Shown here piece after piece: positions 9,972 to 55,560 of a stretch of 64,000 nt of DNA. Below the pieces are notes generated by a model. That model was not told the DNA's origin, ran no database searches, and saw only the letters and a list, made by a program, of their open reading frames with translations. The translations under genes and the position numbers were made by a program. The stretch's first letter is position 1; each line of letters begins with the position of its first letter. Source of the DNA: Isoetes taiwanensis (taxonomy: Eukaryota > Streptophyta > Lycopodiopsida > Isoetales > Isoetaceae); contig JAJEKV010000004.1 in the NCBI GenBank assembly GCA_021234155.1, positions 28,731,698 through 28,795,697 on the forward strand, given 5' to 3'.

Positions 9972-10769
9972 TTATTGCTTTTGTTTGTCTGTTGCAAGGG
10001 AGGCCCGCTTATGGGTTGCAATGGAGCTGTTGATTACTCTTGCATGCATGTAGCAGGTTGAGGTTATTTAGAAGTTGACCTGAACCTTTGGGTGACGTGG
10101 AAATGGGGATTTGATCCCATATTAATTTCTGGTGGACGGTTGTGGTTATTGGGTTTTGGATATGCCTTGGAATATGCCCTTTTCGAATGGCCAGGATTAA
10201 GCACAGTTTCATTATATATGGACTTTTCGTAAGTCCATAAATATATCAAATGCTCGTTATCGCGTAGAATAAAGGGTGAATAGTACAACGGAAGGAGATA
10301 TAATAAAATAAAATGCAAGACTTGTATTAAAAATTAAATGATTGAATAATGTTTACACATGGATGGAGAATAAAATGTTATAACAAAATGTACATTACTG
10401 CAGCTCGAAATTGCCCAATTTCGAGTAACTTCTTAGACTAAGTAGTCGAATATGTAACAAGCGTACTATCAAAGGGCCAGGTTGCTCTTCGGCTGACAAA
10501 GCTTTTCCATGTTCTTTAAACTATGGTTGACTACTACAATTAGAAAATAAAATACTTTGTAGATTAAAATAGAGTGAAACAACATTAAGACGTTAAAAAT
10601 GTACATGGATTTCATGTTTTTGAAATGTTCACATAAGGGTATACTAAATAACATGCTACAACTAAAGGATATATTGTGGGTCTTCATAGTTTCCTTCTTT
10701 GCAAGATATACATACAAGTCCTTAAGATGGTCCACTTTGTGGCTAGGATCCAAATCCTGGCTTTCGGCA

Positions 10770-11045
10770 TTTTATTGTCTTTGCCATCAACCCTACATAA
10801 AAAGAATTTCAATCATTTGGCAAAAAGAAGTAAGACTTGTTTTGTCTTTGCCATCGGGTCTTTGCCATCGGCTCTACATAATGCCCTGCATAATAAAGGA
10901 ATTATGTTAGGGCCATTAGCAAAAAAAAAAAGTTTTGTCTTTGCCATCGGCCCTAGGTAATGCCCTGCATATGTTAGGGCCATTTAGCAAAAAACAAAAA
11001 AATGCAAAATAAAGGAATTATGTTTTAGTCATTTAGCAAAAAACA
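10770..11045. repeat. Irregular repeats of TTTGCCATCGG / GGGCCATTAGCAAAAA
   Basis: The phrases TTTGCCATCGG, ATGCCCTGCATA and TTAGGGCCATTTAGCAAAAA recur two to four times with variable spacing. No coding potential is seen. Confidence 0.5.
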
Positions 11046-11146
11046 CTAGTTGGGGTAACTAACAATGGGTCTCTAAATTGGGCATTTAGTAGAGGGTCAA
11101 GTACAAGAGGAATATACAACAAAAATAATTTTTGCACCTAGACTTT

Positions 11147-12442
11147 AAATTGGGCGCCCGCCCAATTCAAGAGACTAAGTGATTCAAGAGACTAAGAGTT
11201 TCAATGGAATCTTGGCTAAGAAAGACTCCCAAGGAACAGTTTTCTTTTTATTTATTAGAAAAGGATGGTGACGCCTTTTACGCTTCATAGAGTTTGTCCG
11301 TTATTAAAATCCACATTTACAAACCCTGGCAAATATGCCATGCCCAAATATTAAACTACTAGACAGCTTTAAGAACTTCACACACCATATCTAAGGTGTC
11401 ATTTGAATGAACATTATCTAAATGTGCCTTGAAATTTTTCAGCACTTTAAGCAAGGGGAAATGATATTTTCCTGCAAATTTACATGGCTTACATGGCAGT
11501 ATAGTGTCTTTTGAGCGGCACAAAAGAAGCAAGAAGGAAAGAAATTGGGCGCCCGCCCAATTTGATGGCAAAGGAGGAATAAGGAGGCGGCTCACATGGA
11601 ACATTTCTAGACAAAGCTGCAAAAGAAATGGCATGCCCCAGTCCATATGGCGGTAAAACCCCTTAACCCATACTTAGCTTCATCATTGAAATTTGGTAGA
11701 AAACTTGGCAATAAGCTTTGCCATGGTAGAAACAAGTTAACTTTGCGATAAGCTTTGCCATGGCAGGAACACTAATTAGCTATGACGAAAGCAAAGGAAC
11801 TCCTATCATTGCAATGCTATGCACTATCCAAATATGCACAGCAAAGAAGGAGATACCGAATGCTATGTTTGCCAAGGTAAAGAAATACCCAGGAACCAGC
11901 TATTTCAAGGCAAAATTAAACAGACACAAGGAGAATAGAAGCTAGATTGAATACCTCAGCAAGGCACGATTTTATGGCAAAAATGCACGGGGTTTCAGTG
12001 TGCGCTGGCGCCACAGATATGGAGCTGCTACGGATTCTACATAAATTGGTAGGAACAGAGACTCCAAATTGGGCGCCCGCCCAATTTCGAAGACAGAGAA
12101 ACAACTTTCAACTTGATATACTTCGTAGAAGCAACAAACAAATTGGGCGCCCGCCCAATTTCATAGAGGAGGATCTATTTGAAGCATCAACAAGTCTTTA
12201 CAGCTTTGCAACTGGAATGAGATAAAGCGTGACGATCCCACTGCAGAGAAAAATTTTCTTTACAGATGAGTCCTTTCTTCTTTCCATGAGGGCAGATGGG
12301 TCCTTTCTTCTTTCACAGATTCTCTGTGAAAGGAACAGAGACTCCAAATTGGGCGCCCGCCCAATTTCGGAGACAGCAGAAACAACTTTCAACTTGCTAT
12401 ATTCCGTAGAAGCAACAAACAAATTGGGCGCCCGCCCAATTT
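11147..12442. repeat. Palindrome cluster P1 (arms AAATTGGGC / GCCCAATTT)
   Basis: Six copies of a 22-bp palindromic unit lie at 11147, 11542, 12066, 12140, 12346 and 12421. Each has the arms AAATTGGGC and GCCCAATTT around the centre GCCC; the first copy is cut at its last base. Spacing is irregular, apart from a local tandem duplication. Copies are almost identical while the flanks differ. No ORF spans them convincingly. Confidence 0.85.
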
Positions 12443-12600
12443 CATAGAAGAGGATCTATTTGAAGCATCAATAAGTCTTTACAGCTTTGCAACCGGAATG
12501 AAGTAAAGTGTGACGATCCCACTGCAGAGAAAATTTTTCACATGAAGTTTTTCACAGATGGGTCCTTTCTTCTTTTCATGAGGACGACCCTGTTCTCTTC
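12051..12600. repeat. Tandem duplication of ~280 bp carrying paired P1 palindromes
   Basis: The block starting at AGGAACAGAGACTCC (12051) recurs starting at 12331, with small substitutions and indels. Each copy contains two P1 palindromes 74-75 bp apart and the shared phrase GTGACGATCCCACTGCAGAG. The second copy ends near 12590. Confidence 0.75.
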
Positions 12601-13797
12601 TTCCCTCTTTGCTTCACTATTCTGGATTGTTTCATTCAAGACCAAGGTGGAATAGGCTGAAAGCCATTCATGCCCATATCTGGCTGTTGCTCTCAAATAG
12701 CTTGGCATAAAGGTTTAATGGCATGGTATGGAAAGGTTTAATGGTTTAGCGCAATAGAGGGAGCAACGAAAGTAAGGTAGTGGCTGGCACCCTTCAATGC
12801 TGTACATGTTTGGTATGAAAGCTGAAAAATTAAATAAAGCTCAAAAACTTACCTTTCCATTTTTTAAGAACATTGCCATAAACAGCAACTCGAACTCGAC
12901 ACAAAACAACGTAATGTCAGCGCCTTCGAGGCCTCAATGCTTACCACAAAAAGAAAGCTTCATCCAGCAGGAGAGGAGACAAATAACGTATATAAATGCA
13001 CATGCATTCTATGGACATGCATGAGAGACATGTGGCACTCTTGTATGAGCATGTATTATAATGTATTAATTTAAATAATAATGGACAAGACACTTTTTAA
13101 TAGGGATACTTTTACCAAATATTTACGTCTCTTATAGGCGGGACCCAATTGGTCCCACCACAATAAATACTTTTTTAAATGCGTGTGTGGGCAACATTGA
13201 AGTCCATTTGAAATTCAAATGTTCACACGTGCTCCAAATCTGATGGGGGGAAATTGAATTTGAATTTAAATTTCCCCCCCAAGTCCCATATCCCCATAGT
13301 TTTGAGCCCATATTGGCTCATCAATCTTGCCTTTCTTTGTCTACCGTTGGGGAAGCTCTAGATGGCGCTATTCTCTCCCAAGGTTAGTACTTTGCAAGAG
13401 TTTTTAATTTTAGGTAACCGCAAAGGCAAAATGCAATAGGAAATCAAGATCTAAACTATAATTCTTATTTTTTAGGGAGCTTTGCCTTTTTTTGTTGAGT
13501 CTTCACACTCCACTATTACTTTCATTGAATGTTCAACTTCTTTTGAATTCGTTTGTCATATCTTCACGTTCCAGTACTACTTTCACTACATGTGCAAGGA
13601 TCTTTCTTTCTTTCTTGTTTTGTTCTGTATGTCATATTTAAATCTATGAATGCCATTTTTAGATGTGACATTAAATTTGGAGATGCAAACTTTGTATGCC
13701 TCATTGAGTCGTGACATGTGAGATCATGGAATATAAACATGCTTGTGAGGCACCCAAACTATACATGAAAATCTTTGTCATGTCAATTGGCATACTG

Positions 13798-14489
13798 AAA
13801 TTGGGCAGGCGCCCAATTTGAGAACCATGCCATGAGCCCTCCTTGTCACCGGAGGCACCCAAATTGGGCAGGCGCCCAATTTGAAGCACCATGCATGTGT
13901 CTTCCCTTGTCACTGGAGCCACTCAAATTGGGCAGGCGCCCAATTTAAAGTACCATCGTGCATGTGTTTTCTTTGTCAATGAAGGCACTCAAATTGGGCA
14001 GGCGCCCAATTTGAAGTACCATGCATCTTACCGGAGGACTCAAATTGGGCAGGCGCCCAATTTGAAGTACCATCATGCACGTGTTTTCTTTGTTAGTGGA
14101 GGCACTCAAATTGGGCAGGCACCCGATTTGAAGTACCATCATCTATGTATTTTCCTTGTCAATGGAGGCACTCAAATTGGGCAGGCGCCCAATTTGAAGT
14201 ACCATCATCTATGTATTTTCCTTGTCAGTGGAGGCACTCAAATTGGGCAGGCGCCCAATTTGAAGTACCATCATGCATGTGTTTTCTTTGTTAGTGGAGG
14301 CACTCAAATTGGGCAGGCGCCCAATTTGAAGTACCATCATCTATGTATTTTCCTTGTCAGTGGAGGCACTCAAATTGGGCAGGCGCCCAATTTGAAGTAC
14401 CATGCACCCTGTCACCGGAGGCACTCAAACCATCATGTATGTATTTTCCTTGTCAGTGAAGGCACTCAAATTGGGTAGGTGCCCATTTT
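13798..14489. repeat. 66-bp minisatellite built on palindrome P2
   Basis: Eleven copies of a 22-bp palindrome with the same arms as P1 but the centre AGGC start at 13798, 13861, 13925, 13991, 14042, 14108, 14174, 14240, 14306, 14372 and 14468. The usual period is 66 bp, with shorter units where linker was lost. Linkers share GAAGTACCATCAT and GTGGAGGCACTC. The copies at 14108 and 14468 have mutated arms. The period divides by three, so a repetitive 195-residue ORF arises, but nothing suggests it is a protein. Confidence 0.9.
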
Positions 14490-14924
14490 GAAGTACCATG
14501 CATGTGTCTTCCTGTAGGCTCTTTGCCTCCACAAGGTGTTATTGTTAGCATGTTCTATTGCAATTCTAGAGCACTTTTAGGTTAATTCTAATATCTCATG
14601 GAACATTGATCTCCTTTGGTTTTCTCTTGTCTTATTATGGCCTGCATTGACACAATGATCATGAGGTGATATGACATACCCTAGAGGAGGCTAAAGGCCC
14701 CTTCATCCTCTGGAACCAAGATGATGTGCATGAGATTGATGTCGAGCACCCTCGAACACCAAACGGAGGCGAGTGAAAGATAGTAACAGGATGACATTAT
14801 TAACTAGGTATACTTTAATTGCTTTAGAATGTAAAATTTGACACTCTTCTGATTCTATACCTACGGGAAAGGGGTTTATATCGCTTACAAACGCGGATGA
14901 TGCGTCTGTGACTAGTTCCTAGGA

Positions 14925-15700
14925 TTGAAGACAATGGGTTCTATCTGGCTATCAATCTCAACTTTCTTTCCTGGACTATTTCATTATATATGGACTACTG
15001 CAATAAGGCAACATGCCATCTTGGGCTACTGCACTTTGCGACAAGTGGGCATTTTCATCAAAGATTGGCACATTATCTACTGGTGGTATGGTACTTACAA
15101 TAGGACATTTATGGATGGTCCATCAGCTCATGGTAAGACCTTCATGGATAGCCCATCATCTATAAAGGTCTTGCCATGAAATTCTTCTTGCAATTGGATA
15201 ATGCATTTGTACAGAACAGAAATAGGTATGTGTTTTTATATCTTTCATATATTCCCAATAAACATGTGCCCTACCTCTTTTTTAAGGTTCTAGACTGGAA
15301 GGGGATGCATGGAGGAGGCTCTGATGGTGATGAGAGGTTGATCGGGCACAATGGCCCTCTAGCTTTCATGTTTGTGACAAATGGAGAGTTGCAGTACCTG
15401 AATCACTTGCTACCATCACTCCTGGTTATGTTGGCCTATCATCTGGATTCGAGTATAGAGGTTAAAAGATAGAGGATAGAACTCCTGCTTATGTTCCTTC
15501 TAATTATGTCAATTGTTGGAAGAAGAGATGGAGGGCAACGACTGCTAGTGACCACATTGAGATAGAGACTATCGATTATGCTTGGGCTCCTCCTTCTATC
15601 TAGTTGTACATGGTTGTTGCTGAAGCATTCACTGGGGATGTCTGTTAGTGTATGAAAACTGTCACTGACGCAAGATTTCCAAAAAAAGTCCACAAATTCA
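14925..15700 (+). pseudogene. Decayed ORF cluster, possibly DUF7869-like
   Basis: Successive plus-strand frames at 14925-15179, 15176-15472 and about 15480-15690 read like protein but are broken by stops. The second contains LQLDNAFVQNRNRYVFLYLS, which resembles the LQxDN...NKNRxxxxFLS block of the DUF7869 domain found in transposon-associated plant proteins. The expected downstream GHTHED box is not visible, so the assignment is weak. The third frame contains the run IETIDYAWAPPS, which I do not recognise. The P2 minisatellite lies just upstream. Confidence 0.3.
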
Positions 15701-16399
15701 GGTATTGTCCAAAAATAATGAAACTGTGCTTGATTGAGCGATTATGGGATTGAGCGATTATGGGATTTTCAGTTGTTAAGTTCATGTTTTCAAATTTCCA
15801 TTATTTATTTATTTTATTTTTCTTAAAGATGAAGACTTTATTAATCACTCTCAAACAATACATGATACACTGTAGAGATAAGAATAAAAATCCAGTGATT
15901 AAACGGACCCAATTGAGCAAAGCCACCTGTCTAAGCATGATTACATTTTCAAATGCTTTTTACAAATTTTTGGTTGGAAAAAAAAGGTTTTTATCAAAAA
16001 TAAGATTTTTATGAGAGGTCCTTTTTTACAACGCATTGTATGTAATATCTAAGTCACTAAAAATAAATAAAGAAGAGAAGCACTAGAGAGAGAATGTCAA
16101 TTATTTCTGTGCTCATAACTTGAGCTACAGAGGTCAGATTCAGATAGTCTTGGGCTCTATGGAAAGCTTATGTAGAGAGCTTTTCATTGGTATATGATTT
16201 GACCTAGATCTATCATCAAGATAAATACTTGCTTTTTGTACTTGTGACGTGGTCAAGGTGGCTTGGTCCAAGTGTGTCCTTCCCAAATGAGCAGGTGGTC
16301 TGGCCTTTGAATCAAGAGGATGACCCTCCTAGTCTACATCTTCTGAAGCAGTCACTTATTCATTGCATCTTGATTGGCAAGATGGTAGTTAAACCCTGT

Positions 16400-18014
16400 T
16401 TCACCCATTGCAGCTAAACCTGAATGCCTCGTCTTTTTGGCGGGGGTTGTTAGATACATTGGCTGTGGTACGTGTACTATTTCAGCCATCTCCTTCTATT
16501 CATGCCATGTTAGAAATGCCATGTGCAGACCTGGACAAGTGGTGGTCTAGCGAGCACTACTATCTCGATAAGTTCATGATTTCTCAAAAGCATATATGGA
16601 ACCCTGGAAGGGCGGCAGATTTATGGAGGATGTGCCATTGATTGACAAAGTCAGCACTGATGGTGCGACAAGTCCAATACATAGAATTCCTATCCGGCCA
16701 AGAGTTATCAAGTACTTCATAACAAGCTTGGTCGAGGAAGATCAAATTGTATGTGAGTGGTACATGAATGGCCTGTTTTCTCAAGGGGCTATGTTGTATA
16801 GAATGACACCAATATTCGTGGTTGGAAATAAGGACATGGTTGAAACCATTCGGTCATATCTGGACCTGCTTCATGAGCATTTCAAAGAGAGGAAGACAGC
16901 TGGAAGTAGTAAGGACGATGATGACAGAGACAAAGCTGACAGCCAGCGAGATAAAGATGACGGAGATGTCCAAGGTTTAGACGAGAATGCTGCGGAACAA
17001 GTTCTGGAGAATCTGAGATTGAGGTGAGTTCATTTTGCTCTCGTTGTCGAAAAACCCTCCGAGTCTTTAACTTTTTCCTTTCTCGACTCGTGAGTCGAGA
17101 ACCTCGTTTCATAACTGACGTCTTTCATCATTCTAGGGACATCGAGCGCAACCAATCCGGATCATTATCACTATCACAGGGATCTGCTGGCGGTTCAGTT
17201 CATCAGGAGGATACTGCATCCAAAAAAGGCAGTCAAGAACAAGATAGTGCGACCACCAAGAAAGGACCTGAAAGAATAATGATCCCGCATATAGATCTCG
17301 ATCAAGAGGAAATCTGGTCAGAGCCAAATTTAAACTGGGATCCAAAGGCGCCCATCAAGCTTATAATTTTTGACGTCAATGGAGTATTGGCTGCAGTATA
17401 CCATGATGATGAAGTCCCTGAGCTTAACACCTCTGACAAAAGTGGGGTCTAAAACCGTGTATCCTCGGCCTAAAGCAAAGGAAATTATTGAATGGTGCCT
17501 GGAACAGGGATTCGAAGTGGCCATATGGTCTTGTATGGCCAAGAAAAATGTTGTCAATGTCCTTGGTGTTCTCGGCCTTCCAGTTTGAAGTTCAAGCTTG
17601 TTTTGGGAAACGAAAGGGTCGAGCATGTGTCAGACCTCGATCCAGCCATCACAAAGGGGAAGCCTGTTATGGTGAAAAGGTTGGATAAGGTTTATGAAGC
17701 ATACGAGGACTTTAACAAACACAACACGCTGATCATAGATGACTCCACCTACAAGTGCTATCATAACTCGGACAATACAATCATTGCCAAGAGTTATCGA
17801 CCAGAAGAGTAAAACGGATAGGTGGTTGTCTTTCAATCTCGTTCATGTATTGGTGGAATCCCTGTTTGCCATTCTTGTGGCCGATGTGATTAGGAACTAT
17901 CCGAACCTCAAGCAGGTCGATCCAAAGAACAGCGCGATCATGAGGGTTATGGACAACAAATATTATGGTGATCAAGAAGAGCGACCTCTGCTTTCAGATA
18001 GCAAAGTTGTGTGA
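16400..18014 (+). pseudogene. Methyltransferase-like segment joined to FCP1/TIM50-like HAD phosphatase, frames broken
   Basis: Exon 1 (to 17023) ends with a segment, IRPRVIKYFITSL...IVCEWYMNGLFSQGAMLYR. It aligns without gaps to the C-terminal motif-I region of the gene at 47.8-51.0 kb. An acidic linker follows. Intron 17024-17136 (GTGAGT...TTCTAG) is phase 2 and keeps the frame (LRLR-DIERNQ). Exon 2 encodes a HAD domain of the FCP1/SCP/TIM50 type: LIIFDVNGVLAA (the DxDGT box as DVNG, second Asp lost), EVAIWSCMAKKNVVNVL, KPVMVKRLDKVYE, and TLIIDDSTYK with the paired acidic residues. A one-base shift near 17445 is undone near 17588, and a further break near 17810 separates the tail (VIRNYPNLKQVDPKNSA). 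The result is a pseudogene or an assembly with indels. The lost Asp argues against phosphatase activity. Confidence 0.65.
17080..17101. repeat. Palindrome P5 copy inside intron
   Basis: This is a 22-bp near-perfect palindrome, TTCTCGACTCG followed by TGAGTCGAGAA, inside the 113-bp intron 17024-17136. It is the same family as the two copies downstream of the gene. Confidence 0.85.
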
Positions 18015-18084
18015 ATTTTGTAAAGAAACGTGAACAAATATACTATATTTTGTAATGAATATACTTGTACATTGAGTTTTCGCT

Positions 18085-18320
18085 GCCTTTCTCGACTCGC
18101 GAGTCGAGAAAGGCATGCTTGTCCCATTGATGAAACCATTTGTATGCTTGTTTGTGTGACTGGATGCAGCCATATTCTGTAATGAAAATGGTTGACATTG
18201 ACTTTCCAGGGCCTTTCTCGACTTGCAGGTCGAGAAAGGCACTGCTTGTCCCGTTCATGAGACCATTTGTATGCTTCCTTGTGTGATTGGATGCAGACAT
18301 ATTCTGTAATGAAAATGGTT
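18085..18320. repeat. 126-bp tandem repeat headed by palindrome P5
   Basis: Two units start at 18085 and 18211. Each opens with a 30-bp palindrome with outer arms GCCTTTCTCGAC and GTCGAGAAAGGC. The first is perfect across all 30 bases; the second has the centre TTGCAG. The shared body includes CATATTCTGTAATGAAAATG and CATTTGTATGCTT. It lies about 70 bp after the stop at 18014, so it could be 3' UTR. Confidence 0.85.
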
Positions 18321-19565: not shown

Positions 19566-22062
19566 AATAGAATAGAATATGATTTTATCGTCCACGGAGA
19601 CCAACTGGCCTATGGGACCCAAGTACAAAGAGAGAGAGCAGCAGGCGTATTACTACCAGGATTAAAAAACCCCCGCCCCGAAGGGTTTTCGGGGGAAAAA
19701 CCTTAGTAGCAATAAGGATGCTGACATACCGCACGATTATATACATAATCACAAATGTACTGGTGAGGTTAATGCCGGACGGGGGCATAAGCGAGTCCGC
19801 AGATCCATTACCTCCCGGAGGTAACGATCGCAACAAGCCTCTGAGAGGCCGTGCTCGGTAGCTCATGCAAGGCGATGGGGCACAACTAATAGAGCATACC
19901 GAGCCCCGGATATGCTCAGACGGAGCAGGCACGGAGGGCGTGACTTTCATCCTCAATGGGCCGTTGACGGCACTAACGGACTCGCCCCTCACGGCGCTCC
20001 CGAATCTATCTCCCTGTCTCAATGCGGAGGTGGTGTGCACTGTGCGAATGGAAGCAATCACCTGCGCTTTTTCATGGGTAGATGGGTGCGCGGGTAGTGG
20101 TGTGGGCCCCTCGTGAGCATGGGATTAACTTTGTTGTCGATAATTTGCCACCTTGACATGTGATAGGGCCTCTGCATCCCAAAGCTTGGCCATGAAGCAA
20201 GCATCCAAGCACCGCTTCAAGGCGCCAAGGCGTTCCTTCGGTGTATGCACCGGGTCCACATCGTGTGCCTGCACATTCCATAGCGAGAACCACCGGGCTT
20301 GCTTGTCTTTCCAAAGGCTTTGAGTCGCCTGGGGCCCATCGCCACCGCCAAAGCAAGGTTGGGCAGCCGGGCTTCATCCATAGCCACCACCTTCCGGAAG
20401 TAAATAATGTGACGTTCGGTAGCAGCCCTCAGTAATGGAAGGAAGCACGTCTCTTGGAGCAAGATCTCGATATGGGACCGTGGATTTCACTCCCGGTGCG
20501 GGCCCAAGAAAGCTTTACATGCACTGCTCTAGATCGTTCCAAGTGGTGAGGGATATCACTGCCCCCATTTTACGCCCCATAAAGGAGGACGGTTCAACCA
20601 AGGCCACGAACAAGTGTGCTGGTGACCCCATGCATCTGACTACGCCTTGTATTTGTTGTTTTGCATTGCATACAGGGCTTTCCGACCCTCTGATGACCCG
20701 TAACACGATGGATGCATCCCGGTGTGTGGTAGTAGAAAACTCAATGCCCAAATACTTATAATCTTGAGCCACCTCCACTACACCTTTTGGTAAGTGAATG
20801 AGGGAAGGCGTGGGTGCCGGGATGATGGGACCAAGAAGCACCCTTGTCTTGGCCAAGTTAACTCTCATGTCGGTGAATTGGCGAGAAAGTGTCCAAAGCA
20901 TCCGGTGGCGTTGCATGTCCTCGGGGGTATATCGCGGCGAGGCCAACATCATCGGCATATATGAGTTTGGGATTATGTGGTGCATCAATGGCGCCTCCCC
21001 CCTCCCCGTGCTCAGCTAGCCATTCTTCTAGCTGGTCAATGTACAAGCCGAAGAGCGTCGGGGATAGAGGGGGCCCCGGCGCACCCCAATGCTACTAACA
21101 ACGGGCTCCCCGGCGGTGTGAGACGGCCAGGAGCAAGCCTCAGATAATGCGTATATAGCATTCGCAAGTCGACGGGGTCCCTAGTTTGTCTCAATCTGTC
21201 CCACAACTTATCGAGGCAGCCGTGTCAAAAAGCCTTTGCGAAATCCACAAAGCAACAGTGATGATTAAAGCGTCGATTAGGCTATCCTCTATGAGTGTTC
21301 GCAGAGTGAAGATATGGTCAATAGTAGAATGCCTGGGCGGAAAGCACAAGGCATGCGAGCCCGCACTTCTCCATCCTTCGCCCAAAGTGTCAATCGGCCA
21401 AGAATCCGGCAAGCAACTTGGCAAAGACAGCCCGACCATAATGGTACGATAGTTGGTCAACGTGGGGGTCCCCTCGCTTTGTATATGGGCACAACTCTAC
21501 CGGTAGTCCAAAGGCGGGGGAAGCCTTCTTGCAATGCCCCGTTGAAGAGTCTGCCGTGAGAACCGGCACCATTGGGGGCCCGCCCACTTGAGAAGCTCGC
21601 CTCAGATACCATCCAAATCACGCCTTCCGTTAGCGAGGCGTTGCGTGCCCATTATGACATCCCCTTCGAAGAATGACCGATTAGGCCTCACATGCGGAGG
21701 TACCGGGTGCCCGGCTTCCCATTGGGTCATACCGCCGCCGCAAGTATCTCACCCATTGTTCGGGTAATATTTCCCTGTGGGGAACATGCGGGCTTACTCA
21801 AGACCTTTCTCCGAAGGCCCTAGGGTGGCGGTCTAGAAGACCAAACATCATTGTTGAGTGCTCGCTTAAAGGTACCTGGCTTTCTTGGTCTTGAGGAAGG
21901 AGCGGTATTGACGGACGGCCTGCGGGCGAATGGTGGGGTCCAGCACTTGGCGGAGCCATCGTTTCAGCTCCCGACATTCGTCATCGAACCAGTGATTGCG
22001 GGGGAAGGTGATTGCGGGGGAAGGAAGGATGCATGAGGCCATCGGCAAGGTAAGCCCGGTCT
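19566..22062 (-). mobile_element. 5'-truncated LINE with pentanucleotide tail
   Basis: On the minus strand, a linker after the endonuclease (HWFDDECRELKRWLRQ, around 22000) is followed by RT blocks: RAGHSTIDHIFTLRTLI-like, an FVDF(R)KAFDT-like block, the catalytic LIYADDVGLAA (around 20940), LAKTRVLLGP and a DYKYLGIEFS block. Several frame breaks are present. The 3' end carries GGTTTTTCCCCCGAAAACCC, then GGGTCCCATAGGCCAG, then GGTCTCCGTGGACG, and finishes in a short (ATTCT)n tail at 19566-19580. No endonuclease core lies upstream of 22062. Related 3' ends occur at 32668 and 34060. Confidence 0.8.
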
Positions 22063-34059: not shown

Positions 34060-34212
34060 TTACTGCAAAGGTTTTTTCCTTGAAAACCTTTCGAGGAAGG
34101 GGTTTTTTAATCCTAGCAGTAATGGTTGTACTAGCCCATTGTATGGGACCCATGACCTCTTGGTCTCCGTGGAGGTTAAAGAATCTATTCTATTGTATTC
34201 TATTCTATTTTT
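34060..34212 (+). mobile_element. LINE 3' fragment with (TATTC)n tail
   Basis: The plus strand carries the same order as the 19.6-kb LINE 3' end: AAGGTTTTTTCCTTGAAAAC, TTTTTTAATCCTAGCAGTAA, TGGGACCCATGACC, TTGGTCTCCGTGGAGGTTAA, then several TATTC units. It is strongly 5'-truncated. Confidence 0.75.
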
Positions 34213-36303: not shown

Positions 36304-36322
36304 GCGGTATAAATTTATACCG
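36304..36322. repeat. Isolated palindrome P4
   Basis: This is a single GCGGTATAAATTTATACCG copy, 0.8 kb from the main P4 array in the same nested element. Confidence 0.8.
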
Positions 36323-37147
36323 AGGATAAAAAGTTGAAGTAATGAAGCCATGTGATTACATGCCCTCCTTTTTATTCTCGGAGATGTATTTTGAAGCGCA
36401 CATACCAATCTACAACATGGTGATGCTCGGGAGATAGTCAATCTCCTTAGCAATGTTGAGCATATTCATCACAATTCGTCATCCGTAGCGGTGGGCACCA
36501 TGCACATTTCTCTGGCGTTGAAGTATTCGATGCGCCTTACCCTTTCCTAAATATTTTGTAAATAAATAGGTAAACTTAGAGGGATTGCTACTCCTCGCTC
36601 CCCTCCGGATAAACCACGTGGTTTCCTTCTAGTCAAAACACTGTGTCACCATAATATTTTGGAGTTCTTTGCCTTTAATAGCAATTTTTTTTTATTTTTG
36701 AAGTGAAGTTCGCATGTATGTAGAGAAAAAAAAGTAGAAATAACAACATGATTCGACTACTTTATGCTCTAACATTGCATTACAAGCTCGAAATTTTAGA
36801 ACCGTTTTAGAACTTTTTAGACTAAAAACTAAGAAAAGTGTGTAAAATTATCCCTTATGTGTGTTACTTTAGTAGTTTTAGGTTGCCAAACCCTTTGGCG
36901 AGTAAGAAAGACCCCAAAAGATTTTACCACGATATATACTTTACCTACGAATTTTGCATATATATATACATATATATATAAGCGTTTTATATATATATGC
37001 AATCGATTATAAATTTATACCGTTTCTCCGTATAGATTTATACATAAAGAGTTCTCTTTTCTTAGGATATATATATGTAAATATGTATATATATTATTAT
37101 ATATATACACACATATATGTGTATAAATTGATTGTCGAAGGTTATCT

Positions 37148-37434
37148 GCGGTATAAATTTTATACGAGAGAGAGTCGTCGCGGTATAAATTTATACCGAG
37201 AGAGCTCTTCTTGGTATAATGAGGGAGCTCTCGCGGTATAAATTTATACCGGTGGGAGCTCTCATGATGAATCGAGAGCTCTCTCGCGGTATAAATTTTA
37301 TACCGCTCGAGTCCTCTTCTTGCGGTATAAATTTATACCGCTTCGAGTCCATTTGCGGTATAAATTTATACCATGCGAACTCTCGGCATGTTATATCCAG
37401 ACAAAGACTACCTATTATGGTATAAATTTATACC
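37148..37434. repeat. Palindrome array P4 (GGTATAAATTTATACC)
   Basis: Seven copies of a 16-bp palindrome, often extended by GC on both sides, start near 37148, 37179, 37230, 37277, 37321, 37354 and 37419. Two have an extra T in the centre or a lost end. Linkers share GAGAGAGCTCTC-like or CGAGTCCTCTTC words. The core contains TATAAA on both strands. Confidence 0.9.
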
Positions 37435-38189
37435 ACCGAAATTTATTTTGAAGGCGTTATGTCCACGCATTGTCCTCGCGGTATATATAAGTCTATAGCA
37501 AGACGGATGAGCAAATAAGAGCAAGTATATAAGACGAAGAGCGAGCGTCTTCGACTCCAACTTGCGCTTCAAAGTGTAAGTTTGTTCAATGAGGCATACT
37601 TTCATGTGAAAATGTTTGCTTCAATGAGGCAATGTCAAAATGTGTTGCATTTTTTACAGTTTTGTTCATAGTTTTGTACTGATTTTGAAAACTTTGAATA
37701 AAATACCTTTTTGGCACTTTAATGTGTTTGCTGTTTTTTTCAATGTCTATTTTGTTTAGTTTTTGAAAATATTACTATTTCTCAAACCAAACTAGGGGGG
37801 CCAAAAAGGGATGTCAAACAATTTTGAATGGAAGCTAAGTTCACACCCCCCCTCAAAAATGATGCCTAAAATTTTCAAATTGTCACACTTGTCACAAATA
37901 TACCATGAAAAGGGACCTTTTTGGGGGGATTTTAGGGAATCTTTCAAAGATTCCTTTTGAAGTGCGTTTTGAGCAAATTAGTGTGTTTCATTTTAAACTT
38001 TGTTAATACTCAGAGTGCAGAGAAAGGTGGTTTGTTTTACTGATTAGAAACTGATATATCCAAAGTTCCATGATAATAGGAGCACCGCGTGGAGCTCCTA
38101 ATAGAATAGCACACCTTGCTAATTCTGGCATGTATCTACGTAAGGTATATTTTGCTAACATTATACCATTGACAACATTCCCCCTCAAA

Positions 38190-45330: not shown

Positions 45331-45480
45331 GTCCAGAATCTGCTTTTACATATGATTAGGTTGCATGATAAAGCATGACAATTAAATGACTTAGGAATAT
45401 CAAACGCATCTACAAGCACAATTTCATTAAAGTTGGAAAAATAAGGCAAGTTGGAATAATTTTAATACAGGGATACTGGA

Positions 45481-45600
45481 GGGTTATGTATACCTCCATA
45501 CTTATAGTAGGGTTATGTGTATTACAAAGGGTTATGCATACCTCTATATTATAGTAGGGTTATGTGTATACAAAAGGGTTATGTATACCTGTTGTATACT
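45481..45600. repeat. GGGTTATGTATACCT tandem repeat
   Basis: About five units of GGGTTATG(T/C)(A/G)TA with TAGTAG or ACAAA linkers, period about 25-35 bp, lie upstream of the WDR12-like exons. Confidence 0.6.
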
Positions 45601-45619
45601 AACACAACCATCTTAACAT

Positions 45620-46156
45620 CTAACACAATAAGATTACATGTACTATTACAGTGGAGACAGTGTCTGATGATGATGTGGAGGTACTAGGCAAGTTGGGGGT
45701 ATCAGTATCCGACGTTCCAGAAGACTCAGTTGAAGCAGTTGCACAAATTCTCACGTCATTTCGAGGCCATTCGATGTATGTCCCCACGGCCTCAGCAACA
45801 TTATCTGCTCCAGCACATGGAACGGGAAGCACATGGGAGGGCACTATGGCTTCAGTGACTTCCACGACCACATTCCTAAATTCAACATTCCTACCATGCA
45901 GGTGTCCTTTGTGCAATTCATGCCCCCTGGCAACAACCACACCCTCAGAGAGAAGGTTTTGCAAGGTTCTTTTCATGAAACATACATGACATACGATTAG
46001 TAAGGAACACCAAATGACATACAGGTAAATGGCGCGGACGCGCAATTTACAGGTAAATGGCGCAGCCGCGCCATTTACCTGTAAATGGCGCGTCCCCGCC
46101 ATTTGGTGAAACAGCGCAGGCGCGCTGTTTACACGTAAGTGGCGCGGCAGCGCCAT
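45620..46156 (-). CDS. DUF8039-like domain ORF
   Basis: The minus-strand frame contains GRNVEFRNVVVEVTEAIVPS, then a DNVAEAVGTYIEWPRNDV block. This resembles the DUF8039 domain of plant transposon-associated proteins, where a conserved V-G-x-x-V-x-W-P sits near the end. The C-terminus is a Ser/Thr-rich acidic tail (SSGTSDTDTPNLPSTS). Its apparent N-terminus runs through palindrome array P3a, so the real start is probably a downstream exon boundary. No transposase domain is visible. Confidence 0.45.
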   Translation of the reverse strand: MALPRHLRVNSAPALFHQMAGTRHLQVNGAAAPFTCKLRVRAIYLYVIWCSLLIVCHVCFMKRTLQNLLSEGVVVARGHELHKGHLHGRNVEFRNVVVEVTEAIVPSHVLPVPCAGADNVAEAVGTYIEWPRNDVRICATASTESSGTSDTDTPNLPSTSTSSSDTVSTVIVHVILLC

Positions 46157-46184
46157 TTAGGGAAACAGCGCGCAAGCGCCATTT
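46027..46184. repeat. Palindrome array P3a (AAATGGCGC / GCGCCATTT)
   Basis: Six 22-bp units repeat every 26-30 bp. Arms vary together: most are AAATGGCGC with GCGCCATTT, while the fourth is AAACAGCGC with GCGCTGTTT around AGGC. Centres include AGCC, GTCC, AGGC and GGCA. The array lies at the 5' side of the minus-strand DUF8039-like ORF. Confidence 0.9.
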
Positions 46185-46548
46185 CAGCTAAAATGTAATG
46201 GAACTTTAAACTCTAAACCCTAAACCTGCGACAGAGCTATATAATTTCTATGATATTAAGCTATTAGACAAGACTGTAAATCTATATGAACTATTACTAA
46301 CACCTTGCTAGCCTATCTACACTAATTGGAGCATAGCTACTTTAACTGTAGTATACTCAAACATAACACCCTCACAATATAAGTATATCTACACTTTAAA
46401 ACCGATCATTTGCTCAGAACCAACACAATCAAACAAAGTAGCCACTAACCTGGAGGTCATTGTAGTCTGAGGATCTGCCATCGAATAAATTGAAGAACGC
46501 GTGCAAACTTTTGAAGATCGCCTAGAATGCAAGAGCGCCTACTAACTG

Positions 46549-46665
46549 TTGAAGAAGCGACTGCAAAGAAAGTGAAGCGCCTGCAATGCAAGTGAAGCAC
46601 CTGCAAGTGAAGCGCCTGCAAAGCAAGTGAAGCGCCTACGAAAATAATGAAGCGCCAACAAAGCG
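46549..46665. repeat. GAAGCGCCTGCAA tandem repeat
   Basis: About six units of GAAGCGCCTGCAA(A/T)GCAAGT or shorter forms lie here. The GCGCC word is shared with the neighbouring palindromes. Confidence 0.6.
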
Positions 46666-46857
46666 CCTGCTAACGAAGTCTGAAAAACCAACGCCGAAAA
46701 CAGAATAGGCGGCTTATCGACGCCCTGCTTTGTCTTCCAAGCGCTCTCAGGCACAAGTACCTGTGAATATTGATGCGAGGACCATCTTTGTACCTGCAGG
46801 CTTTATACATAGAGTTGAGATAGCGAAAGGTCGCATTTATGAAGGAAAAATAGCGGG

Positions 46858-47075
46858 CAGACGGGCGGCAAAAATTTTGAATTTCAAAAATAGGCGGGTG
46901 GAAAATTTGAATTACAAAAAAATGCGGGCGGAATATTTGAATTTTAAAAATTTGTGGCGGGCGAAAATTTTGAATTTCAAAATTTTAAGGGTGGGCGGAA
47001 ATTTTAAATCTCAAATTTTTGAGGACGGGCGGGCAGCGTGTCAAAAATCCAAATTTCAAAATTTGCGGCCCTTTT
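46858..47075. repeat. TTTTGAATTTCAAAATTT repeats with GGCGGGCGG linkers
   Basis: About six degenerate units of 27-38 bp alternate an AT palindrome (ATTTTGAATTTCAAAAT or variants) with a G-rich linker (GGCGGGCGG, GCGGGCGGA). This is a further palindromic family between the P3a and P3b arrays. Confidence 0.65.
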
Positions 47076-47472
47076 TTTTTCCTCAAAATTTCAGACGTGA
47101 AACTGCGCGGGCGTGCCATTTCGGAATTTCATTTCCGGTTTACTTACACGCGGAAATTTTTTTTTTTAGAACCTCATTTCCTTTTTCTCGTCTTCAGCTT
47201 CCGCCTTCCAGCCTTAGCCTTAGCCTGACCCGGCGCCTATCCATCACTCATCATATACGCTTTCTCTCTCCTATTCAAGCTCATTCTCTCACTAGCGCCT
47301 TTTGACCCGGGAGCGCCATTTCAAAAAGTAGAGTAGATTAAAGATGCATTATATTTTCCTCCGGTACAATACAATGGTATGGCGGTTGTAATCAGAGAAC
47401 TGGTTTGGGGTTAGTACGGTCTCTTGTTTTTTTATGTTTTCTTGCTTATTTTAAAGTAGTGTAGCAGTAGCT

Positions 47473-47822
47473 TAATGGCGCGGGCGCGCCATTTCTGTTT
47501 GAAGTACCAGTGGCATCAAAGCCACCGGTAATTCTGATCAAAATGGCGCGCCCGCGCAATTGCGTTAAGAAGTATGTTAAGTAGGTTTTGCTAGTTAAAA
47601 TGAGGGCTGTGTGTGAAATGGCGCCGCTGCGCCATTTGGGTGAAATGGCGCCGCTCCGCCATTTGCATCTAATATCTGAAATGGCGCCGCTGCGCCATAT
47701 ACGTGCACACAAATGGCGCAGTGGCGCCATTTCACACAAATGGCGCAGCGACGCCATTTCACATACTAGATGCAAATGGCGCAGCGGCGCCATTTCACAC
47801 GAATGGCGCAGCGGCGCCATTT
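47473..47822. repeat. Palindrome array P3b (AAATGGCGC / GCGCCATTT)
   Basis: Nine copies stand directly 5' of the plus-strand ParB/methyltransferase-like gene. Centres are GGGC, GCCC, CGCT (three, one with a damaged arm), AGTG and AGCG (three). Spacing is irregular in the first half and about 26-42 bp in the second. CGCT is the reverse complement of AGCG, so the later copies are effectively inverted relative to the earlier ones. Confidence 0.95.
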
Positions 47823-47867
47823 AACTCTGTCTTGAACCTTTTTCATTTTCTCGTTGGATTTGATGCA

Positions 47868-50800
47868 GTTATCACAGTCAGGGCCCAAAATGTGGTTACC
47901 CGGAAGACCCTTGTCATGGGCGGCAGGCCTTGGTGCATGGAGATCGTCAGGGCTACACCCTTGACAGACGGTGTCGATCCAACAAAAGGAGACAAGAGGC
48001 GGGAGCTTTGCCTCCTCGTCAAGTCTAGGACGGGAGATTCAGGGGAGAAGTCGGTGTCCCAGATGGGCATCATTGTAAACATGAGAGAAGTCAAGAAACA
48101 GAACATGCTTGACTTCCTTGGCTGCACTATCGAGGATCCTGTGAATGCCACCATTGATCTGTACTGTATGGACTGGCAGACATATCCAACAATGATGGAG
48201 TCAAGCATCAAAGACCAGCCATTGTCAGCCAAAAGAAAAGGTTGGCCATTGCCTTCATACGAATCAAGGGAAAATGCCCAAATCAACAGGACAATAGAAA
48301 TCCTTAAAGGATTCGGCATATTGCGAGGAGCTCTGGACACGTCCAAGAACTCCCCGTCCTACATTGTCAGAGCCAAGACCTCAGGCAATATGGCGGCCCT
48401 CATGGACACTAGATGGTTGGAAGGCGAGGTTGCGAGAAAGAATAAAAAGGAAAAACCTGCGGCCAGAGTTGCCAAATAGAAGCCAACAGAAGTAGTTGAG
48501 CAGGTTGGAGGGGATGAACGGGTTGAACAGGTTGATCAAGATGGAGGGGCTGACCAAAAGGCAGAAAGTAATTCATTGAGTGCAAGTCCGGATCGTAAAC
48601 TGTCTCCATTGTAAGAACAAGAACTGTCTGACTCCGAAAAAACAGTGAGCGATTCAAAACACCAAGAGCAACCCAATGTGGCAGCTTCAACAGTAGATAG
48701 CGTTCCGGCAAAAAGGAAAAAGGAGACCGCTAGGGAGACAAAGGCAAGAAAGCAGCGAAAGATGGAAAACCTCCAGGTGCCCACAGAGTTAAGAATGGAC
48801 CGGGCAGTCGAGACAGAATTGGCAGAGGAGACGATGGCTAAGATACAAGAACACGGCCATATGTTTCCTCTTGGCATCACCTACACGAGAAAGGTGTCCA
48901 TTTGGGATCTAGAAGAGGCACCACCTAATATGACTGCCAGAGTCGTCAACCCGGAGCACGTCAGGTCGCTTTGCCATTCGTTTGCATCAGATCCACATCA
49001 TGTCTTCACTCCAGTTGTCCCCTTTGATCCAGATACAAAGGAGTTACTGCCCTGGTCACAGGAATCAGAGCTTGCAGGAAAATGGTTCTACATAATAAAT
49101 GGCAACCATTCCGTCTCTGCTGCACGGCTTGTTTGCAGTAAGCTGGGGAGAGAAGATTCCAGAACAGAACTCAAAAATATTTACGCGTTTAGATTATGCA
49201 GAGTTCTATCTAGGAATATTAGTGATCTAGATCTGCTTCAGCTTTCTGTGGATGTCAACGACATTGTGGCGAAGATAGTCTTCAAGGAGCCTTATGCAAA
49301 TCAGATACACCACCTTCGGAGGCAGTATCAGGAGTGCGGTAGACCAGCACCAGCCGGAAAAGGACAGTCACGAAGTGACAAGTACAAGGTATGTTCTCGC
49401 CTGCCTAACCATAGTGTAAGGTCAAATGGCGCAGTGGCGCCATTTGGCGTCAAATGTCTAACACTTCTAACAAAATAAGTTTTGTTTCAGCACTACCTTC
49501 AAATGGTAGAAAAGATTCTCCGAGGCAAACACACAAAAGACGTCAACAGGTTCGTCTTCATGCCGGATGAAATTTATACTATCTTCCGCCAAATGTGGAA
49601 CAAATGGAAGAAGGGTGAGCTGAAGGACAATAAGGGTCAAGCTATAGTAATCAATTGGGCAAAGGACAAAGATTACTTTAGCGAGAACTATCTCAGGTGC
49701 ATGAGAGGCTTAGACTATGAAGATTGTAGAACAGTCCTACAAGAAGCTGTCAATGGAGATATCTATGTGAAAGTCACCTCAGATTACAAGGGTGATAGCT
49801 TTTTCAAGACCAGAGCACAAAACTTGAGAATTATGGCATACATGAAAAAGGAGATACTGCACTTTATCTCAGATCAGTTAGGCGTAAAGTACAAAAAGTT
49901 CGAGGACTTAAGGAAGGGGTTCGAGGGCTTCTCTGATGGTTGCATCTTGGGTTGGGGGGTTATTTACCATAAGTGGGTCTCAGAAGGAATACTTAAAGAC
50001 GGAGTCCATGGTAACATGCCCATCTCCTTAGGCAGAACGATTCGGAAAATGATTAAGCCAGAGGATGAAAAAGAGTTGCCAAGGTTTTTCTTGGAGTGCG
50101 TTCCAGCCAGTGGCATTTCTCAAGAAAAAAATTCTTTTCCTGCCAGCATGATCTGTCTTGATGCGAGGCAGATTGCTCCGCTATTGAAGATACCATATCC
50201 AAGTTCTTTGATGCCGCATCACAGATGACAGAAGTAGAGACATACTGGATTCTTTGTTTTGTCTGGCCGGAGCATACCTCTCTATTTCTTAATGGCCTTG
50301 AAAGACTAGAATCCAGGTCCAGAGTGTTTGTAGGTGTTTATGAGGAAGAAACTGGACCCTCGGGAGGTGCTAGAACAAAAGAACCACATGCTCTTGTTTT
50401 GGCAACGCATCAGAGCCTGATGAAGATCTGGACCTCAGGTTCTATGGTGACCATCCTCGTAAAACACCTGAAGTTCCTGCTACTTTAAAAGTGGCCATTG
50501 GAAGTGAGGCTGACAATATGGCTAAGAAGCTTATGCAGGACAGATTCAAATACGGTTGGCAGGGTATGGATGGAGAGTATCTTGCGCACAAACAGATCGG
50601 TGCTGCTACCTAGTTGATAAGCTCTGCCCTCCAGGTAACATCGTCCTTGATTTCTTCTCCTCTGACGCTTTTTCTAGGGCTGCACTACATGTTGGTAGGA
50701 TCAGTGTGACATACGAGCATGATCTAGGAAAGATTAAATGCATACAAGGCATTCTGGGTCGGATCGAGAACATCCTATACCCCTTGCTTGCTCCAGAGGC

Positions 50801-50993
50801 CATTAATACACGCACACCTTTGAGACTGAAAGGTGTAGAGGCTGGAGAGACCTCTGGTCCCAAAGACTTTGTAGACACGGCGGCATCAGGATCAGGCGGT
50901 GGTAACGCAGAGGATGAGATTGTTGATATGAGTAAAATCAACCCAGATGATTTTACAAAAGTGGACGATGACCAATTTGATGACGCCTACTAA
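47868..50993 (+). pseudogene. ParB-like / degenerate DNA-methyltransferase-like protein gene
   Basis: One frame runs from a likely acceptor at 47868 to 50228, with in-frame TAG (48477) and TAA (48612) in a charged linker. The N-terminal part (RPWCMEIVRATPL...) is unrecognised. A ParB/Srx-like fold follows: VSIWDLEE, NPEHVRSLCHSFA, IINGNHSVSAARLV (the GxxR-like box as GNHS), then DLLQLSVDVND. Intron 49389-49490 (GTATGT...TTTCAG, 102 bp, phase 0) precedes HYLQMVEKILRGK. Frame breaks occur near 50165 and 50400-50600. The C-terminus, LVDKLCPPG then NIVLDFFSSDAFSRAALHVG, matches motif I of class-beta DNA methyltransferases, but the FxGxG glycines are replaced. No DPPY/NPPY box was seen. ParB-beta methyltransferase fusions are known in bacteria and phages; activity here is unlikely. 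Confidence 0.55.
49424..49445. repeat. Palindrome P3 copy inside intron
   Basis: One perfect P3 unit with centre AGTG lies inside the 102-bp intron 49389-49490, the same family as the arrays on both sides of the gene. Confidence 0.95.
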
Positions 50994-51061
50994 AAGGCAT
51001 TGTAAACTAAGAATTATTTGATCAGCAAGGTCTTTTCTTTGTACATTCCCACTTGTATATA

Positions 51062-51365
51062 ATGAAATAGCGCAGCTGCGCCATTTGTAGGCTCATTAAA
51101 TTTTACCAAATGGCGCAGCTGCGCCATTTGTTTTATGATTTAAACGGCGCGGCCGCGCTGTTTGCCTGGCCTAGTTGGTGCTTTTGTACATAAAATTTGC
51201 CTGACTTTATTTCTACCACTGCTTGTTGTATGTTTTTCTCTTTAAATTTTTAACAAATGGCGCCATATTTTTTTTAAAAAAATAAGGACTGTCGCGCCAT
51301 TTCAACTAAATTGTAGCGTTTGGTAGGATATTTGCCAACCTCTTCATTAAATAGCGCCATTTTGC
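51062..51365. repeat. Palindrome cluster P3c in 3' flank
   Basis: Copies with centre AGCT start near 51065 and 51109. A variant with arms AAACGGCGC and GCGCTGTTT lies near 51142, a stretched copy at 51254-51302 has its arms separated by an A/T run, and a half copy lies near 51350. They start about 70 bp after the stop at 50991-50993. Confidence 0.9.
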
Positions 51366-51620
51366 TTCCTAAAAGTGTGAAAAAAGGGGGAAGAAACTAA
51401 TTTCGATACAAAATGGAATCACGAAATTTCCATATTTAATGAAATTGTGCTTCTACATATGAATGATAAACATCAAAAAACATTGTTTCGCGTTATTGTT
51501 GGTGCCAAGAATTATATTAGCTTCAAATTCCTGCCTTGTAAACAATTGCCATGCCGAAAGAGACCTCCATTTGTAGATTTAATTTTTATAAAGCATGCAA
51601 TTGAAAGTTTAGTTACGGCT

Positions 51621-54777: not shown

Positions 54778-55560
54778 GATTGTTATAATAGGGCATAACA
54801 CCCTTATTCCAAGGTGTTATCGCTCTCTTCTCCATCTTGTCCTTTGATGACCATTTTTTGCTAGCAATTAGAAGATAAATAATTGGATCCAATTTCTTGA
54901 AGAATAGCTTAATTCCAATGATAAATTTCTGAATGATTTTGAAGGTGGAGCGCAATTGCCACTTGGGCTGATTATCAATCCTCTTCAAAAATTTTATTTC
55001 CTATGAAACATAGTAAAAACATGAAAGAGTTTGGTCCTTAAAAATTTGCAATCTTGCATTTTGATAATCTTTAGGATGAATTGTGTAAAGGATACAATAC
55101 ACATTACCTCAAAGGTGCCTTTAAAGGTGCTGGATTGTTTGTGATCCCATTATCAAAAAAGTTTTTAGCTTAGAACATTGTTGTTGCAGTTATGAGCTTG
55201 CACATGCAATGGTGCCTACAGTGCCTATGGCCTTATCCATAAATGATTGCATGGAGTAATTTGCTATCGGAATAGTTCTAAGTCTTCATTTTCATAAATT
55301 CCACCACATTCACAAGCTAGGCCTAAGATTTCACTGGGTTTAGAGGGCAACCTATCTTGCATCACCAACTTGTTGCCAATGACTGCATGAAAAGTTCGAA
55401 GCCCTAAACCTTAATTAAACTAAAACCCTAGATTCGAAGCCCTAAACCTAAATTAAACCAAAACCCTAGATTCGAAGCCCTAAACCTAAATTAAACAAAA
55501 AAAAACCCTGCAGGCCAGACGAGCCCTAAATACTGATGTAACTTATAAAGCTGCGAAAAG
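54778..55560. repeat. Second copy of the sequence captured at 2.4-3.8 kb
   Basis: 54778-54976 matches 2455-2657 in the same orientation (for example GATTGTTATAATAGGGCATA and GGTGGAGCGCAATTGCCACT). 54995-55560 matches 3755-3265 inverted, up to ATAAAGCTGCGAA. Here the two blocks are joined directly, so this copy shows the arrangement before the foldback arms came between them. Confidence 0.8.
55397..55508. repeat. 38-bp minisatellite with CCCTAAAC words
   Basis: Three units of TTCGAAGCCCTAAACCTAAA with TTAAACCAAAACCCTAGA follow each other. The copy at 3.35 kb has only one unit. CCCTAAAC resembles the plant telobox or telomere-like sequence, common near transcription starts. Confidence 0.75.

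Follow-up and report, generated by a model that had tools for sequence, protein, structure and literature searches.

Transposons that carry a gene for a ParB-like protein joined to a methyltransferase are already known from algae. An accessory protein of this kind was described in Sola1-1_Ec32 of Ectocarpus (Dinatale et al. 2025, PMC12477816), and green and red algal relatives are cited there (Iyer 2011; Petroll 2025). Here, a 64,000-nucleotide stretch of DNA from Isoetes taiwanensis (contig JAJEKV010000004.1, hereafter the window) was analysed, in which a 6-kb element, named element A, was found to hold a gene of the same apparent type together with 22-bp palindromes of its own. The best explanation of the whole locus, to which we give slightly better than an even chance, is that element A is a decayed, Sola-like cut-and-paste transposon carrying a ParB-methyltransferase-type accessory gene, and that its palindromes are bound by the protein of that gene.

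The likeness to the Sola1-1_Ec32 protein lies in a ParB-like part followed by an N4/N6-type methyltransferase, a length of about 1000 residues and carriage by a DNA transposon; in addition, the 4-bp target duplication fits Sola. However, element A sits in a plant-like host genome, its catalytic motifs were not recognisable, no transposase was found and it measures 6 kb, when the Ectocarpus element has 21.5 kb. Private 22-bp palindromes such as those of element A are not mentioned for Sola1-1_Ec32 in the available part of PMC12477816.

The second system for comparison is VANDAL/VANC of Arabidopsis. VANC21 binds a 9-base motif that is concentrated in non-coding DNA including introns and was spread by tandem repeats, and the motif of VANC6 differs (Hosaka 2017, PMC5735166). 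These motifs have been tied to escape from RNA-directed DNA methylation (Sasaki 2023, PMC10398659). Element A resembles this system in having short motifs that are dense in non-coding DNA and in an intron, are partly tandem and differ between sister elements. It departs from it in three respects: its motif is palindromic and 22 bp long, profile comparison places the protein with the ParB-methyltransferases, and the target duplication has 4 bp. VANDALs are Mutator-like elements with longer target duplications.

Within the terms searched in one open-licence library, neither land-plant transposons with a ParB-methyltransferase gene nor palindromes of this kind were seen to be reported. ParB-methyltransferase passengers of algal transposons are already known, and what is new is the occurrence in plant-like DNA and the element-specific palindromes as plausible targets.

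Boundaries of elements A and B

Element A was delimited at positions 45414-51452 (6039 bp) by inverted ends and a 4-bp duplication, CTAC. The ends were exact over 16 of 16 bp and matched at 24 of 26 bp within the element. An inverted-repeat scan of 42.7-58 kb returned them as a 42-bp pair with 34/42 identical positions (45398-45439 against 51427-51468), the outer 16 bp of which were flank outside element A and matched at 10/16. When long-range pairs of at least 32/40 identities, 2-16 kb apart, were collected over the window and low-complexity sequence was removed, the pair of element A and one other remained. The other was an inverted pair joining 19647-19706 with 34066-34125.

Two further copies of the core of the pair, AAGCACAATTTCATTAAA, were recorded with 2-3 mismatches, against a chance expectation of 0.36 matches in all. 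These copies were convergent, had their outer ends at 10199 and 15731 and enclosed the second palindrome cluster of the window; the DNA between them was named element B. With the ends set at the terminal-repeat core, perfect 4-bp flanking duplications were obtained in both elements, CTAC for A and GATT for B. An unguided scan of the window for exact inverted pairs 3-9 kb apart gave 5 pairs at 16 bp and 14 at 14 bp. Identical 4-bp flanks were carried by two of the scanned pairs, which were the ends of elements A and B, while 60 shuffles at 14 bp gave a mean of 2.95 inverted pairs and none with identical 4-bp flanks. A terminal-repeat profile built from the four ends scored them at 35.6-41.9, the next best score in the window being 15.9, and the sequence AAGCACARTTTCATTA characterises the element family of A. 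Because matching ends and 4-bp duplications were found at both, it was concluded that elements A and B are sister terminal-inverted-repeat DNA transposons.

The first-pass annotation had described the locus as a gene wrapped in palindromes, within 47473-51365. The palindromes and the gene were real, and the counts of nine palindromes 5' of the gene, one in the intron and three after the stop were correct within that interval; however, it was too short, since the natural unit is 45414-51452, with seven more palindromes upstream. The transposon nature of the unit, the sister element with its own palindromes and the algal precedents had been missed.

Sola elements are described as having terminal repeats 11-1124 bp long and as duplicating 4 bp at the target, and they are present in the moss Physcomitrella (PMC10741241); both elements A and B showed a 4-bp duplication and terminal repeats within this range. 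Duplications of 4-6 bp are known for Ginger (PMC10741241), and still other groups may leave 4 bp, so that this length is not specific to Sola. Neither element showed an intact transposase in scans that used no Sola-specific profile. It is from the 4-bp duplications and terminal repeats that we infer Sola membership, and element A is called "Sola-like" in this sense.

The features of both elements are collected in Table 1. The DUF7869-like stretch of element B may be a transposase remnant, as we take DUF7869 to be a transposon-associated domain. The 178-residue frame of element A presumably resembles a plant transposon-associated domain. A tandem repeat of about 30 bp, composed of GCGGGCG and AAATTTTGAATTTC, was also observed in element A 5' of the gene, at 46867-47064.

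Table 1. Positions of the features of elements A and B within the window
Feature	Position	Strand	Details
Target-site duplication, left copy, element A	45410-45413	.	CTAC
Left terminal inverted repeat, element A	45414-45447	+	starts AAGCACAATTTCATTA; first 16 bp equal the right end
Open frame of 178 residues, element A	45620-46156	-	adjoins the left palindrome array; no Pfam match
Six family A palindromes	46027-46184	.	tandem; starts 26-28 bp apart
Single family A palindrome	47100-47121	.	degenerate
Nine family A palindromes	47473-47822	.	5' of the gene
First coding block	47868-49388	+	in-frame ATG 47916; ParB-like part about 48880-49170
Intron	49389-49490	+	GT...AG, 102 bp
Family A palindrome in the intron	49424-49445
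Second coding block	49491-50993	+	methyltransferase-like end; motif-I-like block about 50.61-50.77 kb
Three family A palindromes	51065-51163	.	after the stop; starts 51065, 51108, 51142
Further family A half-sites, paired or single	51255-51362	.	51255/51294 (enlarged centre), 51349/51354
Right terminal inverted repeat, element A	51419-51452	-
Target-site duplication, right copy, element A	51453-51456	.	CTAC
Element B	10199-15731	.	5533 bp; terminal repeats of the element A family, AAGCACAGTTTCATTA; flanked by the duplication GATT
Family B palindromes	11147-14489		AAATTGGGC-N4-GCCCAATTT; 17 sites in element B
DUF7869-like stretch, element B	15152-15286	+	28 residues; E 0.0004, under the curated cut-off

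The window as a whole looks like plant nuclear DNA, because it contains one frame with PPR repeats (Pfam E 5e-12), another with Methyltransf_29 (E 7e-37), and the integrase of a retrotransposon (E 5e-13). No tRNA genes were found in it.

Palindromes of element A and related families

A family A site is the 22-bp sequence AAATGGCGC-N4-GCGCCATTT. Each arm was compared with three arm variants, at most 2 mismatches being tolerated in it, and 20 sites were recorded in element A. The window held 34 at the same tolerance, the other 14, between 11.5 and 14.4 kb, being sites of family B, which is related to A. The information per column of the element A sites was 1.08-2.0 bits in the arms, 0.14-1.25 in the centre and 0.03-0.74 in the flanks; the conserved unit is therefore 9-4-9. 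When spacings of 0-12 bp between exact 9-bp arms were compared over the window, 4 bp was the commonest (34), followed by 2 bp (20). Exact half-sites numbered 27, against a mean of 0.45 (maximum 2) in 100 dinucleotide shuffles of the window, and exact 9-4-9 palindromes, which comprised all families and some AT repeats, numbered 34 against a shuffle mean of 0.41 (maximum 3).

With one mismatch allowed, 45 of the 50 family A half-sites of the window lay inside element A. All 45 fell in its 3015 bp of non-coding DNA and none in its 3024 bp of exon, so that the motif arrays are confined to the element's non-coding DNA in the manner of the VANC type.

It was considered unlikely that the palindromes are sites for the transposase of the element, with the ParB-methyltransferase gene as an unrelated passenger. 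Subterminal repeats do serve as transposase sites in some plant transposons, and the palindromes of element A lie towards both ends as well as inside; element B, too, has palindromes and a possible transposase remnant, and no clear ParB-methyltransferase gene. However, the palindromes are not limited to the ends: some lie 0.3-0.4 kb from the right end, but others are at 0.6-2.4 kb from the left one, and the intron copy is 4 kb into the element. Furthermore, near-identical ends combined with distinct palindromes would be unexpected if one transposase were shared by the two elements.

An origin in ribonucleic acid (RNA) structure was rated lower still, as decidedly improbable. The arrays would then act as hairpins or be transcribed as inverted repeats, supplying small RNAs or influencing splicing, and the palindromy would come from RNA folding. 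The interval 47613-47825 is an inverted repeat with 93-bp arms that are 89% identical, the 5' array folded as RNA into a hairpin of -170.5 kcal/mol (z -19.5), and one palindrome is intronic, as such a source would have it. The extreme fold is not independent evidence, however, because any DNA palindrome array folds well. Moreover, over 1.7 kb separate the six-site array at 46027-46184 from the in-frame ATG 3' of it, and a variable 4-nt centre in three families would be equally expected of dimer sites.

Families A, B and C share the 9-4-9 plan, their arms being AAATGGCGC, AAATTGGGC and TTCTCGACT, each followed by 4 variable bases and the reverse complement. The arms of A and B differ at 2 of 9 positions, symmetrically on both arms. 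At 2 mismatches per arm, 14 family B sites matched A and 9 family A sites matched B, while within one mismatch the two families separated. Element B contained 35 of the 51 family B half-sites of the window (at most 1 mismatch), and no exact one lay outside it.

Family C, TTCTCGACT-N4-AGTCGAGAA, was observed at a remnant of a NIF/FCP1-like phosphatase gene (16572-18244; Pfam NIF E 5e-10). Its sites lie in the intron (17080) and in the 3' flank (18089 and 18215) of this gene, a layout resembling that of element A. A small scan of 15.74-16.6 against 18.24-18.45 kb found no inverted ends around family C, and the terminal-repeat profile gave no further end of comparable score in the window, the family C region included. 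A family D cluster, GCGGTATAAATTTATACCGC, occupies 36304-37478. A dispersed 26-bp near-palindrome, ATAACACCC...GGGTGTTAT (in one copy AGGTGTTAT), was also recorded at 2403-2428, 2480-2505, 3772-3797 and 54795-54820.

The presence of four families, A to D, within 64 kb, one of them at an unrelated gene, would suit neutral satellite growth, in which slippage and strand switching multiply the palindromes in non-coding DNA and the transposon only shields them from selection. The copies of element B would suit it as well: many lie in one minisatellite of ~66-bp units and the remainder partly in a duplication. On the other hand, the arms are kept over scattered copies, when the centres are variable and the flanks mostly unrelated, and the intron copy is isolated. 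At site 46109 both arms are altered and the palindrome is still perfect, and families A and B differ symmetrically at two positions. Neutral growth was on these grounds given a small probability. Site 46163 combines one altered arm with one standard arm.

In viral contigs, palindrome A was met in 3 stretches and palindrome B in 2, with one site each, and the terminal repeat pattern had no match in viral or prokaryote contigs.

The ParB-methyltransferase-like gene

The gene was covered by the open frames 47673-48479, 48615-49478, 49479-50228 and 50526-50993. In-frame stops were located at 48477 and 48612 in the first coding block, and in the second the frame is broken near 50.17, 50.40 and 50.61 kb; the single intron, the two stops and the breaks at 50.1-50.6 kb reported earlier were all seen in the sequence. 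Because of the stops and frame breaks the gene would be a pseudogene or contain assembly errors, a decayed copy being the simpler reading.

No significant library match was obtained for the gene, and none in NCBIfam. Three weak matches fell on the same C-terminal block, namely those to N6_N4_Mtase in Pfam (E 0.2), to a DNA methyltransferase in PHROG (E 0.12) and to M.RsrI in PDB (E 0.28). A Gordonia phage methylase (E 7) belongs to the ParB-methyltransferase fusions, and many of its 120 listed relatives have PF02195 (ParB-like) and PF01555 together. An alignment of 61 of these bacterial and phage ParB-methyltransferases was taken as a profile and compared by hhalign with the read-through of the gene. 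Residues 872-924 matched the methyltransferase end (E 0.0072) and residues 322-419 the ParB part (E 0.13), in the order of the fusions; a third match was trivial (E 0.99). None of 300 block shuffles reached the top score or gave both matches in order. These results back the earlier claim of a ParB-like block followed by a methyltransferase-like block, as in bacterial and phage fusions.

Compared with such fusions, for example gp84 of Gordonia phage Nubi, the gene has the same domain order, the GNH box that is present in 55/61 relatives, and the C-terminal motif block in register. The fusions, however, have about 400 residues and carry DPPY-like and FxGxG motifs, present in 61/61 relatives, when the gene of element A has about 1000 residues and neither motif was recognisable in its read-through; the DPPY region lies near the frame breaks, which prevented a safe judgement. 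This bears on self-methylation, by which intact relatives would label the element they belong to through methylation of adenine or cytosine within the palindromes. Such a role is compatible with the favoured explanation and is suggested by the methyltransferase-type C-terminus, and the algal relatives have been proposed to bind and modify the element that carries them (PMC12477816). Since the two motifs are not recognisable in the element A copy, apart from the uncertainty near the frame breaks, self-methylation was considered a less probable addition, at about the standing given to neutral growth.

Further searches were made at the protein and nucleotide level. Among 5.8 billion proteins, neither the ParB part, with 543 candidates, nor the whole read-through, with the 7992 candidates that shared most words, had a homologue at E <= 0.01. 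In viral contigs the ParB part had one pattern match, which was unconfirmed, and it had no match in phages. The methyltransferase part gave 17 phage records by tblastn (E 0.3-10). Four of these were annotated as methyltransferase or DNA methylase and matched at the expected C-terminal place; six were ribonucleotide reductases, six, which matched where the reductases did on the query, were unannotated, and one was a replication initiator. The DNA of 46000-51400 had no match in plasmids. Overall, ParB-methyltransferase ancestry of the gene is supported by the profile comparison, and no claim is made that it encodes an active enzyme.

A second methyltransferase was sought at 16.57-17.03 kb and rejected. 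Its hhalign score was 15.1, off the methyltransferase part, with 88/300 shuffles as good; in pairwise comparison with the main gene 28/2000 shuffles were as good, and the relation is unproven. The neighbour of this stretch is NIF-phosphatase-like (E 5e-10).

Proposed recognition of the palindromes and its meaning

The likeliest role of the palindromes, and a plausible one, is that of a target of the element's own ParB-like protein. We proposed that the ParB-like part of the protein, or of an intact relative, would recognise the 22-bp palindrome as a dimer, each subunit taking one 9-bp half-site and leaving the 4-bp centre free. The 9-4-9 plan would be explained by this mode of binding. Dense occupancy of the promoter side, the intron and the 3' side would mark the non-coding DNA of the element as self, and such occupancy of regulatory DNA fits the non-coding confinement and the intron copy. 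As the catalytic motifs appear to be lost, occupancy is favoured over methylation in the element A copy, and the protein would act mainly in this way. It might keep host silencing off, as VANC does on VANDAL transposons, or gather the ends of the element; a VANC-like anti-silencing role is drawn by analogy. Sister elements may diverge in their palindromes and so avoid cross-recognition, which fits the near-identical ends and symmetrically diverged palindromes of A and B. Binding, its dimer mode, anti-silencing and co-divergence are steps that we infer from the sequence.

Several observations weigh against this proposal. Family C lies outside elements A and B, at a gene unrelated to ParB-methyltransferases, and the family D region is without a recognised gene or element. 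Because of these two families, clustered palindromes are not unique to ParB-methyltransferase genes, and they may be a wider habit of the Isoetes taiwanensis genome. No clear copy of the ParB-methyltransferase gene was found in element B: when the gene was compared with the rest of the window, its best match was there (11829-11906, minus strand, 26 residues with the GNH box, E 0.14), and it is probably due to chance, though it is in the expected place, its frame having no further support. The tie between palindromes and ParB-methyltransferases thus rests on one element, and the pairing is unproven. In element A, the frames scanned for a transposase, which included part of the short ones, yielded none. 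The ParB match alone is weak, 2/300 shuffles having a second score as high. The structure and profile comparison suggested in the first-pass annotation gave the hhalign matches to ParB and methyltransferase, but the ParB part, given to AlphaFold as a single sequence, yielded no usable model (pLDDT 31.7). Finally, VANC21 motifs lie in one orientation (PMC5735166), when the element A sites are palindromic. The earlier suggestion that the palindromes are targets of the protein family, or relics of targets, therefore gained from the supported ancestry and the non-coding confinement, but was not helped by element B, with no clear gene, or by family C at the NIF-like gene.

A bolder form of the proposal is that element A represents a second, independently evolved self-recognition of a plant transposon, in which a captured, catalytically dead ParB-methyltransferase binds private 9-4-9 palindromes, shields the element from silencing and co-diverges with its sites. 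We regard this as tentative and on present evidence doubtful.

The algal passengers were proposed to bind and mark their own element, and no target site is named for them in the available part of PMC12477816. Element A offers a candidate, the private 22-bp palindrome, which flanks the gene 5' and 3' and recurs in the intron; with it the proposal of self-binding becomes testable. If the proposal is true, plants would have evolved VANC-like self-addressing at least twice, using unrelated proteins.

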